Source: Treponema sp. | GTDB lineage: Bacteria > Spirochaetota > Spirochaetia > Treponematales > Breznakiellaceae | DNA length: 64,000 bases | Assembly: GCA_009787835.1 (NCBI GenBank) | Contig: WQSN01000001.1 | Coordinates: 99,072 to 163,071, forward strand | Reading direction: 5' to 3' | In this document: in pieces, positions 40,247 through 49,002 of the stretch | Layout of the letters: every line of letters begins with the position of its first letter | How positions within the stretch are numbered: position 1 is the stretch's first letter | The notes under the pieces: generated by a model | What the model was told of the DNA's origin: nothing | Seen by the model: only the letters and a program-made list of their open reading frames with translations | Database searches by the model: none | Program-made: the position numbers and the translations under genes

Positions 40247-41473
40247 ATGTTTTTATTTCCATTATACATTGATCCTGGTACCGGGAGCGCGATTTTCTCA
40301 ATTGCAATCGGCATAACTGCTACTGTTTACTTTCTTGCGCGCGGACTTTTTCTGAAACTTGGAATAGTTGTTTTTAAAAACAGGAAAAATTCTGAACCTC
40401 TGAATAAATTTGTAATATACGCTGAAGATAAAAGATACTGGCCGTTCTTTGAAAATATACTCGATGAATTTGAAGAACGAAAGATTGAAATCCTGTACCT
40501 TACAACATCAGAGGATGATCCTGTATTTTTATCGAAATACAATTTTATTAAAGGGAAATTCATAGGTCAGGGAAATAAGGCTTACGCCTATCTTAATTTT
40601 ATTTCAGCGGAATTTCTTTTAACAACTACCCCCAATATTGATGTTTTTCAATGGAAACGATCAAAAAATGTAAAACATTACTGTCACATGATTCACGGCG
40701 CGGGCGGTTCTGTATTTTACCGTCTTTATTCATTTGATTATTTTGATTCTGTACTTGTTCCAAATGAAAAAGAAATTCCTGAACTCCGCATGCTTGAACA
40801 AGTCAGAAATACAAAAGAAAAACAGCTAATTGTTGTCGGTAATACTTTTTTTGACAGATGCAATAAAAAAATAAATCAGATACAAAAAGAAGAATCGCAT
40901 ATTTTCACTGTTCTTGTATCTCCCTCATGGGGAAATTCCGCATTGCTCAGCGTATTTGGAGAAAAATTAATTGAACCTCTCTTGGTAACAGGATGGCGAA
41001 TAATTATCCGTCCTCATCCGCAGTCATTAATAACAGAAAAAAATCTTATAAACTCATTAATGGATAAATACAAAGAAAACACAAACATCGAATGGGATTA
41101 TAATCATGAAAATATATATTCACTTTCTAAATCCGATATAATGATTTCTGATTTTTCAGGAATCATTTTTGATTATGTATTTCTGTTTAACAAACCTGTA
41201 ATTGTTAACATTCAGGATTTGGATTTTAACCGTCTTGACGCGCAGGATTTACAGCATGAACCATATTTTTTGCAGGCGATAAAAAAAATCGGAACGCAAA
41301 TTGATGTCAATACGTTTGGTAATATAAAAGAAATAATATCAAACATTTCCCATGATTCCCGTATGCAGCTAATTCGTGAAGAAATAAAGAACATTATGTG
41401 GCAGTATCGCGGAGAATCCAGTAAACGAGTGGCGGATTTTATGATTCAAACTGTTGAAAAAGGAAACGTATAA
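40247..41473 (+). CDS. CDP-glycerol glycerophosphotransferase (TagF/TagB)-like protein
   Basis: MIHGAGGSVFYRLYSFDYFDSVLVPNEKE; GWRIIIRPHPQ; DIMISDFSGIIFDYVFLFNKPVIV. Confidence 0.8.
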   Translation: MFLFPLYIDPGTGSAIFSIAIGITATVYFLARGLFLKLGIVVFKNRKNSEPLNKFVIYAEDKRYWPFFENILDEFEERKIEILYLTTSEDDPVFLSKYNFIKGKFIGQGNKAYAYLNFISAEFLLTTTPNIDVFQWKRSKNVKHYCHMIHGAGGSVFYRLYSFDYFDSVLVPNEKEIPELRMLEQVRNTKEKQLIVVGNTFFDRCNKKINQIQKEESHIFTVLVSPSWGNSALLSVFGEKLIEPLLVTGWRIIIRPHPQSLITEKNLINSLMDKYKENTNIEWDYNHENIYSLSKSDIMISDFSGIIFDYVFLFNKPVIVNIQDLDFNRLDAQDLQHEPYFLQAIKKIGTQIDVNTFGNIKEIISNISHDSRMQLIREEIKNIMWQYRGESSKRVADFMIQTVEKGNV

Positions 41474-41507: not shown

Positions 41508-43334
41508 ATGCAGGCGATAATTTTAGCCGCAGGCATGGGCAGGCGTTTGGGAGAATTAACAAGTGAGAACACTAAATGCCAGGTTGTTGCTTGCGGAAAA
41601 ACATTGATAGAAAGAATACTGGATCAAATCTGTGAACATGATTTTAACCAAATTGTTTTGGTTATTGGATATTATGGCAATAAACTAAAAGACTTTATCG
41701 GAGATAAATACAAAGACATACCTGTAAAATATGTCATTAACAATGATTATAAAACAACTAACAATATTTATTCCTTATTTCTTGCAAAAGATTATCTTTT
41801 AAATGATGATACAATACTTTTTGAAAGCGATCTGATGTTTGATAATTCTATTCTAAATGATTTAATCGCCAATCCGTATCCAAACCTCGCGTCTGTTGCC
41901 AAATATGAAAACTGGATGGACGGAACTGTTGTAACAATTGATGATGAAAATAATATTTTAAGCTTCATTCCCAAAAAAGATTTTATTTTTTCCAATTCGA
42001 ATAATTATTATAAAACTGTCAATATTTATAAATTCAGTAAGTATTTTTCCGCAAATCAATATCTGCCGTTTCTGGAAGCTTATTCCCGCACAATGGGAAA
42101 TAATGAGTACTATGAAGATGTGTTAAGGGTTATTGCGTTTTTAAACCACTCTTCTTTAAAGGCGCATGTAATAAATCAAAATCAAAAATGGTATGAAATC
42201 GATGACATTCAGGATGTTGACATCGCTGAGACATTATTCGCAAATAATGAGAATATTCTTTATAATTATCAGAAACGATACGGCGGTTACTGGCGTTTTC
42301 CGGGACTTCTGGATTTCTGTTATCTTGTAAATCCTTTTTTTCCTGCACAAAAAATGAAAGACGAATTAAAATCCAATTTTGATACATTACTTTGTGAATA
42401 TCCATCCGGTCTTGATATTAATTGCCTTCTCGCGTCAAAATTTTTTGGAATCAAGAAAAATTATCTTTCTGTTGGAAACGGCGCGGCGGAGTTGATCAGG
42501 GAACTGATGTGTTTATTGTCCGGAAAGACTGGCATTATTCTTCCTACATTCGATGAATATTACAACAGAAAGGATTCTGAAAATTTTGTCACATATATTT
42601 CCGAAGATGATTCGTATCAATATAAAGCAAAAGAACTATTATCTTTCTTTTCTGATAAAAATATTAATACGCTTTTACTGATTAATCCCGACAATCCATC
42701 AGGCAATTTTATACCGGTAAATGATGTTTTGGATATAGCATTATGGACCAATAAAAATAAAATTACGTTTATATTAGACGAATCATTTGTGGATTTTTCT
42801 GAAGATTCCGTTTCTAATTCATTATTAAAAAATGAAGTACTGGAACAATATCCAAATATGATCATTGTTAAAAGCATTTCAAAATCATACGGTGTCCCAG
42901 GTCTGCGGCTCGGTATAATGGCTTCAAGTAATTCTCAACTGACAGAACAGATAAAAAAGAAACTTCCTGTCTGGAATATTAATTCATTCGCAGAAAATTT
43001 TATGCAAATATTCAATAAGTACGAGAAAGAATATTTTTCCGCCTGTAAAAAAATTATTGCGGTAAGAACCAGCTTATTCAATGATATTTCCTGTATTAAA
43101 TATTTACGCGTCATTCCGTCAATGGCAAACTACTTTCTCTGTGAAGTTATGGCTCCCTTTACAGCAAAGGAATTATCAATTTTATTATTAAGTAAATTTA
43201 ATATATTAATCAAAGATTGCAGCGCCAAATTAGCTTTTAAAGGCAAAGAATTTGTCCGTATTGCGATTAGATCCGAAGATGATAACAATAAATTAATGGA
43301 AGCTTTAAAATTTCTTGAAGTCTCAAACAAGTAG
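41508..43334 (+). CDS. Nucleotidyltransferase (LicC/PntC-like) fused to class I/II PLP-dependent enzyme (HisC/CobD-like)
   Basis: N-terminus MQAIILAAGMGRRLGELTSENTKCQVVACGKTLIERIL...KWYEIDDIQDVDIAE; C-terminus INPDNPSGNFIPV, DESFVDFSED, SISKSYGVPGLRLGIMAS. Confidence 0.9.
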   Translation: MQAIILAAGMGRRLGELTSENTKCQVVACGKTLIERILDQICEHDFNQIVLVIGYYGNKLKDFIGDKYKDIPVKYVINNDYKTTNNIYSLFLAKDYLLNDDTILFESDLMFDNSILNDLIANPYPNLASVAKYENWMDGTVVTIDDENNILSFIPKKDFIFSNSNNYYKTVNIYKFSKYFSANQYLPFLEAYSRTMGNNEYYEDVLRVIAFLNHSSLKAHVINQNQKWYEIDDIQDVDIAETLFANNENILYNYQKRYGGYWRFPGLLDFCYLVNPFFPAQKMKDELKSNFDTLLCEYPSGLDINCLLASKFFGIKKNYLSVGNGAAELIRELMCLLSGKTGIILPTFDEYYNRKDSENFVTYISEDDSYQYKAKELLSFFSDKNINTLLLINPDNPSGNFIPVNDVLDIALWTNKNKITFILDESFVDFSEDSVSNSLLKNEVLEQYPNMIIVKSISKSYGVPGLRLGIMASSNSQLTEQIKKKLPVWNINSFAENFMQIFNKYEKEYFSACKKIIAVRTSLFNDISCIKYLRVIPSMANYFLCEVMAPFTAKELSILLLSKFNILIKDCSAKLAFKGKEFVRIAIRSEDDNNKLMEALKFLEVSNK

Positions 43335-43358: not shown

Positions 43359-46025
43359 ATGACAGAAATATTATTTAATATTATTATATTTCCAATAATA
43401 CAGATACTTGAAATATCTTTTACGCTTTCCCAAAAATTATTCAGGGAAACCGGCATTTCCGTTATCTTTATTGGTATTGTAATAAGTGTATTATGTTTGC
43501 CTTTATATGCTGTCGCAGAAAGATGGCAGCAAATTGAACGCGATACTGTAAAAAAATTAAAACCAAAAGTTGACTTATTTAAAAAAACATTTAAGGGCGA
43601 TAAACGATATATGATACTGTCTACATATTACAGACAGAATAACTATCATCCAATTTATGCGCTTCGAAGCAGCTTTGGTCTCCTTATTCAAATACCGTTT
43701 TTTATAGCTGCATATTACTATCTTTCTCATCTTGAACTTTTAAATGGCGTAAATTTCACTTTTATTGATGATCTAAGCTCTCCTGACGCGTTATTCTCAA
43801 TAGGTGGTTTTACAATTAATGTTCTTCCGCTTGCAATGACTTTTATTACATGTATTTCCAGTTTTATTTATACAAAAGGCCTTTGTACAAGAGATAAAAT
43901 CCAGTTGTACGGAATGGCAGCGGTATTTTTAATTTTGCTTTATAATTCGCCTTCTGCCCTTGTCCTGTATTGGACAATGAATAATGTATTTTCATTATTA
44001 AAAAATATTTATTACAGAATTAATAGTAAATATAAACATTACTTTTTAATAGGTTTATTTTCTTTCCTATGTATTTTTTTTTCGGTATTTTGCTCAATTA
44101 ATTTTTATTATATTGATAAAGCAAGATTACTTTCATCAATTTTGATTTTTTATGCATTTTTTCCCTGGATTTTTTTAATAGTAAAATTTATTTATATAAA
44201 AACTAATATAAAACTTCATCTTGAGAAATCCAATATAATCTTTTTTCTTTCTATTACATTAATCTGGCTGCTCTTTGGACTTTTTATTCCCTCTCAATTA
44301 ATTGCTTCATCTCCTCAGGAATTTTCATTTATTGACAATTATACAAATCCTCTATATTTTATTTTGAACACATCATTTCAGATTTTCGGACTGTTTATTT
44401 TTTATCCAGTTTGTTTATATTTTCTTTTTTCTAATAATGTAAAAAAAATATTCACAATAATATTTTTTATTATATCTGTATGTATGATTATTAATGTATT
44501 CGCTTTCTCAGGAAATTATGGTGTATTATCTATTAATTTTACATTTGATGACAATTTAAAACATTCCAGAGAGGATATTCTTATTAATATAGTATTTCTT
44601 CTTTTTATATTCGCTATTTCTTTAATAATATATATATTAAAATTAAGAAAAATTATCCCCTTTATTATTTCTTTTTGTATGATTTCCTTATTTGGATTAT
44701 CAATATATAATATTTTTATAATAAATGCTTCATATAAACAATTAAGCAAAAATTATATTAAAAATGAAATTATACTTAATGAAATTACGCCAATATTCAC
44801 AATTTCACAAAAAAGTAAAAATATTGTTATTATAATGCTTGACCGGGCTATCAGCGGTTTTCTGCCATATATTTTGGAAGAATCTCCTGAGTTAAAAAAT
44901 ATCTATTCAGGCTTTGTTTTCTATCCCAATACTGTTTCATTTAGCGGTTTTACAGCCATGGGTTCTCCTCCTATATTTGGCGGTTATGAATATACACCCG
45001 AAGAAATGAATAAACGAAATAATGTATTTCTTGTTGAAAAACACAACCAATCTCTATTAATGCTTCCCAGAATATACAGTGAAAATAAATTTAATGTTAC
45101 TGTCACAGATCCGCCGTATGCCAATTATTTTCAAAAATGTGACATAAGTATTTTTGATGAATATCCTGAAATTAAAGCTTATGTAACAAATTCCATATAT
45201 ACTGATTTTTGGTTAAATGAAAATAATATGAAGTTTCAGTCAACAAGTGAAATAATAAAGCGTAATATGTTCTGGTACTCTATTTTAAAAGGTATTCCGC
45301 TTAATTTACGCAATGCAGTTTATATGGATGGTACGTGGTGTTCTCCTGTTTCTGACCAGAGATTGCGTTTAACTCTTGACGGTTATTCAGTTCTTGATTT
45401 TCTCCCCAGATTAACAAAAATTACATCTGATGAGCGTAACAATTTATTAATAATGACAAATCTTACAACCCATGAAGGTTCTTTCTTACAGGCTCCAGAT
45501 TATACTCCCGCACTTTCGATAACAAATTATGGCACATCTCCTTTTTCAAAAGAACATGCTTATCATATTAACGCTGCCGCTATTAAGCGTATCGCAGATT
45601 GGATTATATATTTAAAAAATCATAACGCGTATGATAATACAAGAATAATACTTGTTGCAGATCATGGACCCAAACCTAATTTTATTACAAAAAATGATTT
45701 GCCATTCAATGTTGATCAATTCAATCCGCTCTTACTGGTTAAAGATTTTAATGAATCAGGAGAAATGAAAGCTAATTATTCTTTTATGTCCAATGCCGAT
45801 GTGCCGTATTTATCTTTAAAAGATGTTATTGAAAATCCGGTAAATCCATTTACTGGTAACACTATTTCCAATGAAAGAAAGAATTTACCATTATATATTG
45901 CTATTTCAGGTTCAAACCATGTTTCTGTAAATACCACACAATATATGTTAAATCCTGATATTGATCATTATGTCCATGACAACATCTTTATTAAAGAAAA
46001 CTGGATAAAAGCAGGTGAGAAATGA
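43359..46025 (+). CDS. YidC/Oxa1-like domain fused through further TM helices to a sulfatase/alkaline-phosphatase-superfamily domain
   Basis: YidC-like: [59 protein letters not shown]...[25 protein letters not shown] superfamily: [17 protein letters not shown]...[20 protein letters not shown]...[14 protein letters not shown]. Confidence 0.88.
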
Positions 46026-47047
46026 TAATAAGATCAAAAGCTCCATTGCGCCTGGGGCTTGCCGGTGGAGGGACTGATATCGCCGATTATTACAATCTTT
46101 TCGGCGGTTATGTGCTTAATGCCACTATTGATATGTACGCTTATTGTACTATCGAGCCAAATGATTCAAAGAGAATAGAATTTTATGCGGCTGATATTGA
46201 TAAACAGGAACAGTATCAGTCATGTGAATCATTACCATTGTCTTCTTCTCTGCCTCTGCATACCGGTATTTATAACAGAATTATTAAAGATTTTGTTAAT
46301 AGGCCACTATCTTTTAAAATGACTACATATTCAGACGCGCCAGCGGGTTCAGGTCTTGGATCATCTTCAACAATGGTTGTTACTATAATAAAAGCTTTTG
46401 TTGAATGGTTAAATATTCCTCTTGGCGAATATGACATCGCGGCGTTATCGTATAAAATTGAACGTGAAGATATTGGCTTCGCGGGGGGCAGGCAGGATCA
46501 ATATGCCGCTACATTCGGAGGCTTTAACTTTATGGAGTTTTATGAAAATGACAGGGTTATTGTAAATCCATTGCGATTAAAACGCTGGATTAGAAATGAA
46601 ATTGAAGCGTCATTAGTTTTATTTTATACGGGAATTTCCAGAGAAAGTGCGAATATTATAAGTGAACAGATACAACATGCAAAAGATGGTAATAAAAAAA
46701 ATATAGAAAGCATGCATGAAATGAAAAAACAGGCTGTATTAATGAAAGAAGCGTTATTAAAAGGAGACTTTAATAATTTTTCCAAATGTTTGTCACATGG
46801 ATGGCTTGCAAAAAAAAACGCGGCGTCTTCAATATCCAATTCTTTTCTTGATGAATTATATCAATATGTTCTGGATAATGGCGCTGAATCCGCGAAAATA
46901 TCAGGAGCGGGCGGCGGCGGATTTATGATGATATACTGCAATCCCTGCAAAAAAGTCGCACTAATCCGCGCGTTAAAAGAAAAACAGGGAATGGTGATGA
47001 CGCCGGGTTTTACCGAGACCGGAACACAGGGATGGCGGCTGCCATAA
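46022..47047 (+). CDS. hddA: GHMP kinase, D-glycero-D-manno-heptose 7-phosphate kinase type
   Basis: [70 protein letters not shown]. Confidence 0.88.
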
Positions 47048-47061
47048 CATAAGGAAATAAT

Positions 47062-47688
47062 ATGGAACATATAAATCAGCTTGTAGTCCGTTATCCGCAG
47101 CTTGAATCAATTAAAAAAAATATTAACGCTTCTTTTGAGATTATAAAACAATCTTTCATTAACGGCGGAAAACTTCTTATTGCAGGTAACGGCGGAAGCG
47201 CGTCTGACGCAGAACACATAGCGGGCGAGTTAATGAAAACTTTTACCAAAAAAAGAACGCTCCCCGATTCATTTATTTCTGATATAAGTAAAATTGATCA
47301 TGAAATTTCAAATTACCTTATTCCCCGTCTTCAGCCCGGATTACCGGCCATAGCGCTTTCTGGACATGGTTCCCTAAATACCGCGTGTATTAATGATATT
47401 GACGGCAACATTACTTTTGCCCAGCAGGTTTACGGTTATGGAAAAAGCGATGATGTTCTTCTTGCCATTTCAACATCCGGTAATTCCAAAAATATATTAT
47501 ATGCGTCCGCAGTAGCAAAAGCAAAAAAAATAAAAATAATCGGCCTTACAGGAGAGAGCGGCGGCAGGTTAAAAGAATACACAGATATATGTATTCGCGT
47601 TCCCGAAACAGAAACTTATAAGATTCAAGAACTGCACTTGCCTGTTTATCATATAATTTGCATGATGCTTGAAGATTATTTTTTTTAA
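47062..47688 (+). CDS. gmhA: Phosphoheptose isomerase
   Basis: GKLLIAGNGGSASDAEHIAGELMKTF; DVLLAISTSGNSKNIL. Confidence 0.92.
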   Translation: MEHINQLVVRYPQLESIKKNINASFEIIKQSFINGGKLLIAGNGGSASDAEHIAGELMKTFTKKRTLPDSFISDISKIDHEISNYLIPRLQPGLPAIALSGHGSLNTACINDIDGNITFAQQVYGYGKSDDVLLAISTSGNSKNILYASAVAKAKKIKIIGLTGESGGRLKEYTDICIRVPETETYKIQELHLPVYHIICMMLEDYFF

Positions 47689-47694
47689 TAATGG

Positions 47695-49002
47695 TTGTAT
47701 AAATTGAAAACTGTAATAATGGCAGGCGGAAAAGGTACACGGGCGGCTTCTATAGCCAGCGATATACCAAAGCCGATGATCCCGGTTTGCGGAAAGCCCA
47801 TTCTGGAATACCAGATTGACTGTTTAATTAAAAATAAACTTACTGATATAATCATTGTTGTCGGTCACCTTGGCAATCATATAAAAGAACATTTCACAGA
47901 CGGCAGCCGTTTTAATTGTAATATTTCATACTATACAGAAACTGAACCATTGGGCACCGCAGGCGCTTTATTTAAAATCAATAACCTGTCTGATAATTTT
48001 ATTTTATTAAACGGCGATGTAATTCTGGACATGAACTTTAAACGAATGATTTCCTTTCATAAAGAAAAGAAAGCGGATGTTACTCTTGCGGTTCATCCTA
48101 ACAGCCATCCTTTTGACAGCGCTTTAATTATAAGCGATACAAACAACAAAATTACAGGTTGGATTAACAGGGAAGATGAGCGCTCATATTATAAAAACAC
48201 TGTAAACGCTGGCGTTCATATTTTATCCTTGAATTTTTTGAAAAAATGCACGCAGCCAAAAGTAAAGATCGATCTTGATCGTGATATTTTGAAACCAAAT
48301 ATTTTAACTAGCGAAATATATGCCTACTGTACTCCTGAATATATCAAAGACATGGGAACTCCCGAACGTTATGCGCAAGTAACGACCGATATAGAAAAAG
48401 GAATTGTGCACAGTAAAAATTTAAGTGTTAAACAAAAAGCAGTATTTCTTGACAGGGATGGAACAATAAATATCTACAATTGTTTTATCAGAAAGCCGGA
48501 AGAGTTTGAACTTATTGAAGGAGCGGCTGAAGCAATAAAGATTATGAACCGTCTGGGCTATCTTGTTATATTAATTACCAATCAGCCTGTTATCGCGCGC
48601 GGAGAAATTGATTTTCAAACCCTGGATTTAATTCACATGAAAATGGAAACTGATTTGGGAAAACAGGGAGCATATCTGGATGATATTTTTTACTGTCCTC
48701 ATCATCCAGATAAAGGTTTTGAAGGAGAGAGGCCGGAATACAAGATTGACTGCGATTGCAGAAAGCCAAAACCCGGTATGATTTTAAAAGCGTCTGAAAA
48801 ATTTAATATTGATCTTTCAAAATCATATATGGCAGGAGATCACAACCGTGACATGCAAACTGCTATAAATGCCGGATGTAAACCAGTCTTTATCTCCGGC
48901 GGTGAAGGTAATATAAATGATATTACCAGTGCTAATGTTCTGAATTTCCCATCACTTATTGAATTTGCGTATTTTTTAAATAGAAATGACAATTACTGTT
49001 GA
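47695..49002 (+). CDS. Fused heptose 1-phosphate guanylyltransferase (HddC-like) and heptose 1,7-bisphosphatase (GmhB-like)
   Basis: VIMAGGKGTRAASIASDIPKPMIPVCGKPILEYQI; AVFLDRDGTINIYNCFIRKPEEFELIEGAAEAI and CPHHPD...CDCRKPKPGMI. TTG start (47695 or 47704). Confidence 0.9.
   Translation: MYKLKTVIMAGGKGTRAASIASDIPKPMIPVCGKPILEYQIDCLIKNKLTDIIIVVGHLGNHIKEHFTDGSRFNCNISYYTETEPLGTAGALFKINNLSDNFILLNGDVILDMNFKRMISFHKEKKADVTLAVHPNSHPFDSALIISDTNNKITGWINREDERSYYKNTVNAGVHILSLNFLKKCTQPKVKIDLDRDILKPNILTSEIYAYCTPEYIKDMGTPERYAQVTTDIEKGIVHSKNLSVKQKAVFLDRDGTINIYNCFIRKPEEFELIEGAAEAIKIMNRLGYLVILITNQPVIARGEIDFQTLDLIHMKMETDLGKQGAYLDDIFYCPHHPDKGFEGERPEYKIDCDCRKPKPGMILKASEKFNIDLSKSYMAGDHNRDMQTAINAGCKPVFISGGEGNINDITSANVLNFPSLIEFAYFLNRNDNYC

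Follow-up and report, generated by a model that had tools for sequence, protein, structure and literature searches.

A cytidylyltransferase fused to a serine-phosphate-decarboxylase-like enzyme in Treponema and its predicted role in CDP-ethanolamine synthesis

A 608-amino acid protein of Treponema sp., in which a cytidylyltransferase is joined to a PLP-dependent enzyme, is probably a two-step enzyme that would convert O-phosphoserine to phosphoethanolamine and then to CDP-ethanolamine, for transfer to a surface glycan by a PF04464 protein. Its gene lies in a stretch of 64,000 nucleotides (contig WQSN01000001.1, positions 99,072 to 163,071), below called the window. The CDP-ethanolamine reading is based on the identity of the domains, the catalytic residues, phylogeny, the lack of a phosphonate pathway, the presence of SerA/SerC and the gene neighbourhood. 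In the proposed route O-phospho-L-serine would be decarboxylated by the C-terminal PLP domain, and the N-terminal domain would react the resulting phosphoethanolamine with CTP, forming CDP-ethanolamine and releasing pyrophosphate. Phosphoethanolamine would then be placed onto a surface glycan by the membrane-associated PF04464 transferase encoded next to the fusion (40247-41473); the acceptor is probably the heptose-containing glycan of the same cluster. Both activities, their order, the acceptor and the transferase are inferred, and cytidylylation may come first. The three genes of the module are:

40247-41473, + strand: PF04464 CDP-glycerol glycerophosphotransferase-like protein with a partial domain match (residues 248-398, Pfam), candidate user of the CDP-conjugate
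41508-43334, + strand: fusion gene, N-terminal cytidylyltransferase and C-terminal serine-phosphate-decarboxylase-like PLP enzyme, proposed CDP-ethanolamine synthase (ORF, domain matches, 41-member alignment, AlphaFold2 model)
43359-46025, + strand: YidC-like (YidC/60KD_IMP) and sulfatase-like fusion of 888 amino acids, which travels with PF04464 partners (domain matches, neighbourhoods)

Domains and catalytic residues of the fusion

The fusion is encoded by a single open frame with no interruption. An earlier note on this DNA had described it as a nucleotidyltransferase fused to a CobD/HisC-like PLP enzyme, and the intact ORF, the quoted motifs (NPDNPSGN, DESFVDF and SKSYGVPGLRLG, all found in the translation) and the domain matches agree with this description. 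Pfam places NTP_transferase/NTP_transf_3 at residues 3-133 and Aminotran_1_2 (class I/II) at residues 311-600 (E=2e-25). The PLP half had also been judged closer to CobD/HisC than to PhnW. This was confirmed by NCBIfam, where TIGR01140 (CobD, E=1e-45) and TIGR01141 (HisC, E=1e-35) lead and no PhnW/AEP-transaminase model appears among the best 25 matches. The fusion is not an assembly artefact, since 41 full-length relatives align with it end to end, K459, R13 and K23 are invariant, and AlphaFold2 modelled the full chain with confidence throughout (mean pLDDT 91.7). Residues invariant in the 41 aligned fusions are R13, K23, E106, D108, E203 and E230 and, in the PLP half, N396, D424, K459, K574 and R584. 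The closest named relative, 77% identical, is from a Treponema MAG rated as the same genus (G023). Features of the PLP half are:

42294-43331, + strand: PLP domain, approximately residues 263-608, fold type I class I/II, nearest to SMUL_1544 (6oux) by structure and profile comparison and by tree
42882-42884, + strand: K459, the PLP Schiff-base lysine (SISKSYG), which falls on the SLSK/LTK motif when aligned to 6oux and CobD
42972-42983, + strand: WNIN motif, residues 489-492; W-x-[VI]-N occurs also in 6oux, 3ftb and CobD, while the HisC compared has YNVS (alignment)
43212-43229, + strand: K569-K574; CobD R323 has a basic counterpart here, and K574 is common to 6oux (ADKIG) and absent from CobD (alignment)
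43257-43259, + strand: R584, counterpart of CobD R337, a conserved active-site arginine (alignment)

A PDB profile search with the PLP half returned 6oux with 232 bits, followed by 3ftb (171), Salmonella CobD (142), Porphyromonas CobD (124) and HisC (120). The 6oux structure is that of SMUL_1544, a decarboxylase of Sulfurospirillum multivorans, which is 26–28% identical to the window PLP half and superimposes on it with a TM score of 0.85 in Foldseek. A sequence identical to SMUL_1544 in Sulfurospirillum sp. 'SP' is annotated as serine-O-phosphate decarboxylase of norcobamide biosynthesis and is encoded between cbiB and cobU. A maximum-likelihood tree united all fusions, SMUL_1544 and unfused rhizobial homologues in a single clade (100/99) that excluded CobD-like structures and HisC; the branch of SMUL_1544 is long, and support for where it attaches, within the fusions or next to them, is weak (84/71). 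Besides WNIN and the extra lysine at K574, the two share a CYL-NP motif that CobD does not have. They differ in that SMUL_1544 is a stand-alone protein from a cobamide operon, whereas the window enzyme is fused. By these sequence criteria the PLP half is of the SMUL_1544 type, apart from CobD and HisC, with active-site residues kept, and decarboxylation is its predicted reaction. The HisC of the source genome is encoded by a separate gene (L002, 277 bits). That a decarboxylase and a cytidylyltransferase together would make CDP-ethanolamine or CDP-aminopropanol, as the earlier note had proposed, is the best supported reading, and the grouping with SMUL_1544 narrows it to the serine-phosphate branch. 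A precedent is the PLP enzyme Cj1436 of Campylobacter jejuni, which converts serine phosphate to ethanolamine phosphate for the capsule (PMC12409886). Compared by its described function, Cj1436 resembles the fusion in providing ethanolamine phosphate for a surface polysaccharide; in its pathway, however, ethanolamine phosphate is attached to glucuronic acid as an amide, and CDP activation plays no part (PMC12409886).

Features of the N-terminal half are:

41508-42245, + strand: cytidylyltransferase domain, residues 1-246; in the PDB, LicC (1jyk) and PntC (6pd1) come closest to it
41532-41576, + strand: nucleotidyltransferase motif GMGRRLGELTSENTK, residues 9-23, with K23 where Tde-PntC has its catalytic K25 (alignment)
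41823-41825, + strand: E106, counterpart of the amine-binding E104 of Tde-PntC and D105 of LicC (direct alignment)
42114-42116, + strand: E203, aligned with the YE of the AEP-transaminase fusion and read from the alignment as the counterpart of Tde-PntC E196 and LicC D192

The top PDB match of this half is LicC, a CTP:phosphocholine cytidylyltransferase, which is itself unfused. In Tde-PntC, Glu104 and Glu196 point towards the primary amine of AEP, while LicC has Asp105 and Asp192 and a larger pocket (Rice et al., PMC6697681) and prefers phosphocholine 2700-fold over phosphoethanolamine (PMC6697681). Since E106 and E203 are invariant, the pocket of the fusion is predicted to be of the small primary-amine kind; it fits phosphoethanolamine or AEP alike and argues against choline. 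Assignment of this half as a LicC phosphocholine enzyme was rejected because Glu replaces Asp at both pocket positions.

The two steps may also proceed in reverse, CTP being joined to O-phosphoserine first and the CMP-conjugate decarboxylated afterwards. The product would be the same, and this order is a sub-case of the main reading that does not exclude it. FrbH of FR-900098 biosynthesis is reportedly a cytidylyltransferase fused to a PLP decarboxylase in which a CMP-conjugate is decarboxylated, and its substrate in this antibiotic pathway is said to be 2-amino-4-phosphonobutyrate. By that description its pair of domains equals that of the window fusion, and fusion would favour channelling. 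The cytidylyltransferase of FrbH acts on an amino-acid phosphonate (PMC6697681). The annotation of SMUL_1544, the nearest relative, is nevertheless for free serine-O-phosphate, and basic residues by the phosphate-binding place (K569, K574) are kept, so that we assign cytidylylation-first a low though appreciable probability.

Phosphoserine, phosphonate and other possible substrates

The source genome encodes SerC (464 bits, cut-off 444) next to a SerA-like gene and therefore can make phosphoserine. Two models of PEP mutase gave no match in the whole source genome (3.08 Mb, completeness 96%, contamination 8%), window included, which extends to the genome the absence of PepM that the earlier note had remarked on for the window. 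PepM/Ppd, which that note would have taken as support for the known AEP route, occur in a minority of relatives. No AEP transaminase/PhnW was found in the source genome either; its class V enzymes are chiefly SerC and a pair of NifS-like proteins.

An architectural parallel to be weighed is the PntC-AEPT fusion Tde1415 of Treponema denticola (6pd1/6pd2), which the earlier note had named as the alternative. The two proteins have in common the NTP-PLP layout, a LicC-like N-terminal half, the two amine-binding glutamates and use in surface tailoring. They differ in the PLP half, which in Tde1415 is a class V AEP transaminase, and whole-chain superposition is poor (TM 0.35). Among 199 related genomes PepM is present in 38 of the 39 that carry a class V PntC-AEPT fusion (p=3e-33). 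For the window-type fusion the corresponding figures are 6/35 relatives with and 38/164 without it (Fisher p=0.51), and of a further 40 genomes or records that carry it only 4 have PepM. With a different PLP subclass, no PepM or AEPT in the genome and no association with PepM in relatives, the PntC-AEPT alternative is rejected as the main reading. The C-terminal half was likewise rejected as a class V AEP transaminase (TIGR03301/TIGR02326), being class I/II and CobD-like instead. The fusion is predicted to be a synthase of CMP-conjugates for surface tailoring, with an enzyme of the serine-phosphate-decarboxylase type in place of the transaminase.

Both fusions occur together at a sister locus, L042, which is 77% identical. 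The gene order there is PF04464(1), fusion, PepM, Ppd, PntC/AEPT, PF04464(2), YidC(2), YidC(1), compared to PF04464, fusion, YidC in the window, and its class V fusion scores 385 bits on TIGR03301. The window PF04464 protein is 75% identical to copy 1 of L042 and 52% to copy 2; for the YidC-like protein the values are 65–67% and 51%, respectively. The flanks of the L042 cassette are 64–85% identical to the window, and past YidC(1) both loci share HddA, GmhA and HddC (75–85% identity). These copy-specific identities and shared flanks indicate that the window and L042 differ by a single phosphonate cassette, inserted or lost. In L042 (8744-21802) the cassette is nested inside the fusion module. 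It carries its own cytidylyltransferase, transferase and YidC-like protein, and the window fusion module stands without it.

We kept as a rival a second kind of AEP enzyme, in which the PLP half would make 2-aminoethylphosphonate by transamination of phosphonoacetaldehyde or decarboxylation of phosphonoalanine and the NTP half would make CMP-AEP. The glutamates of the NTP domain match those of PntC, and in four Treponema-type genomes (G023, G101, G049 and, at locus L111, G199) PepM-Ppd directly follows the fusion. Two of these, G049 and G199, lack a detectable class V AEP transaminase fusion, an absence that alone is not decisive because some PepM genomes among the relatives lack the class V fusion and the window-type fusion as well. 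At such loci either the modules are merely neighbours or these copies of the fusion serve AEP. Phosphonoalanine is a phosphonate isosteric with phosphoserine. In Bradyrhizobium p187_1 a PLP enzyme of the fusion clade is encoded beside aepX, a separate cytidylyltransferase and a CDP-alcohol transferase (L035, 4753-8737). This hints that phosphonoalanine may be the substrate of the Bradyrhizobium enzyme, and the set could represent a phosphonolipid route via phosphonoalanine decarboxylation. For the window enzyme, however, AEP synthesis is unlikely, given a source genome with neither PepM nor AEPT, the distribution of PepM described above, and an L042 phosphonate cassette equipped with its own PntC-AEPT, PF04464 and YidC.

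Two other products were weighed. If the PLP half were an aminotransferase for a small phosphorylated ketone or aldehyde, such as DHAP, from which it would form serinol phosphate, the final product would be CDP-serinol. The HisC-like fold of the PLP half is compatible with this, and Cj1437, from the same Campylobacter capsule pathway as Cj1436, makes serinol phosphate; yet the closest characterised relative in our tree of fusions, SMUL_1544, rhizobial homologues, CobD-like structures and HisC is a decarboxylase, and CDP-serinol is very unlikely. A threonine-phosphate decarboxylase yielding CDP-1-aminopropan-2-ol is likewise very unlikely: although TIGR01140 is the top NCBIfam match, the score of 156 bits is far under the CobD cut-off of 291, and in the tree the PLP half joins the serine-phosphate enzyme, apart from the CobD proteins of Salmonella and Porphyromonas. 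The score and the tree also rejected a true CobD; the fold and the W-x-[VI]-N motif are shared with CobD (1lc5), which lies outside the fusion clade. A true HisC was rejected on the same grounds (123 bits on TIGR01141, cut-off 277; outside the HisC clade).

Gene neighbourhoods and spread of the family

Neighbours of the fusion were tallied over approximately 10 kb around it in 84 loci, which are related samples with many Bacteroidales and so not independent counts. At least one kind of phospho-group transferase was present in 62 of them (LicD in 44, PF04464 in 18 and CDP-alcohol transferase in 2). PepM-labelled neighbours were seen in four loci and SAM methyltransferases in nine. Opine dehydrogenase (PF02317) was found in 28 loci and OCD/mu-crystallin (PF02423) in 13, never together. 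A reductase of one of these families directly adjoins the fusion in 38 of the 84 loci (for example L044, 11830-12849, and L052, 11815-12774, with 36 more); 37 of the 38 lie downstream of the fusion and 37 share its strand, while 34 are separated from it by at most 50 bases. Of 12 whole genomes inspected for opine dehydrogenases, 9 have a single one. Enzymes of the opine dehydrogenase/OCD type couple an amine to a keto acid. The adjacent reductases would make N-(1-carboxyethyl)ethanolamine phosphate, known as a group of Proteus O-polysaccharide (PMC9630907), from phosphoethanolamine and pyruvate. Transfer of phosphoethanolamine from CDP-ethanolamine has been shown for a LicD-family enzyme (PMC11982090).

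We lean slightly towards a broader reading for the family. One polypeptide would lead from O-phosphoserine to CDP-ethanolamine independently of phospholipids and phosphonates and feed LicD/PF04464 transferases; in about half of the loci examined a dedicated opine dehydrogenase or OCD-family reductase would N-alkylate the amine with a keto acid, giving glycans with groups such as N-(1-carboxyethyl)phosphoethanolamine, and other branches would lead to methylated or N-hydroxy-N-acetyl (fosfoxacin-like) products. The donor usually assumed for the phosphoethanolamine of bacterial glycans is phosphatidylethanolamine. A soluble CDP-ethanolamine synthase starting from phosphoserine would be a second, lipid-independent source, available to Prevotella, Bacteroides, Clostridia, Fusobacterium and Treponema, many of them host-associated. 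If this is correct, the fusion would be a genetic marker for zwitterionic surface groups and suggest an origin of N-carboxyalkyl ethanolamine phosphates, and it could serve as a one-pot enzyme for CDP-ethanolamine analogues. It would also keep fusion-bearing genomes from being misread as those of phosphonate producers.

On plasmid pBM700 of Priestia megaterium (L036, 5954-11638) the fusion adjoins a Lys/Orn-type N-monooxygenase-like protein, an AAC(3)-like N-acetyltransferase and a CDP-alcohol transferase, with a second DXP reductoisomerase nearby; no PEP mutase was found on pBM700. This set resembles a fosfoxacin-type pathway, fosfoxacin being a phosphate analogue of FR-900098, with a resistant copy of the target. 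The settings in Rahnella (L039) and Erwinia (L034) are similar.

YidC-sulfatase-like homologues of the window protein adjoin PF04464 enzymes in several phyla. The L042/L192 region holds two or three copies, and L117 encodes a protein of 642 amino acids in which YidC is fused to PF04464. The YidC-sulfatase-like protein looks like a membrane partner of phospho-group transfer. Downstream of it in the window (46022-49002) are genes for an HddA kinase, a GmhA isomerase and an HddC-GmhB fusion (435 amino acids, TTG start); they constitute a GDP-D-glycero-D-manno-heptose set with the nucleotidyltransferase and the phosphatase on one protein.

Strong matches to the fusion, full-length or fragmentary, were found in 35 of the 199 related genomes. 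In a collection of species representatives at least 304 fusion relatives were confirmed among the matches listed, which include Prevotella, Bacteroides, Parabacteroides, Clostridia, Coriobacteria, Fibrobacter, Elusimicrobia and others. A literature search found no paper describing the family, which is widespread in gut bacteria and apparently undescribed. Further members come from Fusobacterium, Gloeothece, Rahnella, Erwinia, Priestia and Pseudonocardia. The Fusobacterium vincentii record (L033, NZ_CP084075.1) is labelled plasmid pSB055A; at 2.1 Mb it is probably the chromosome.
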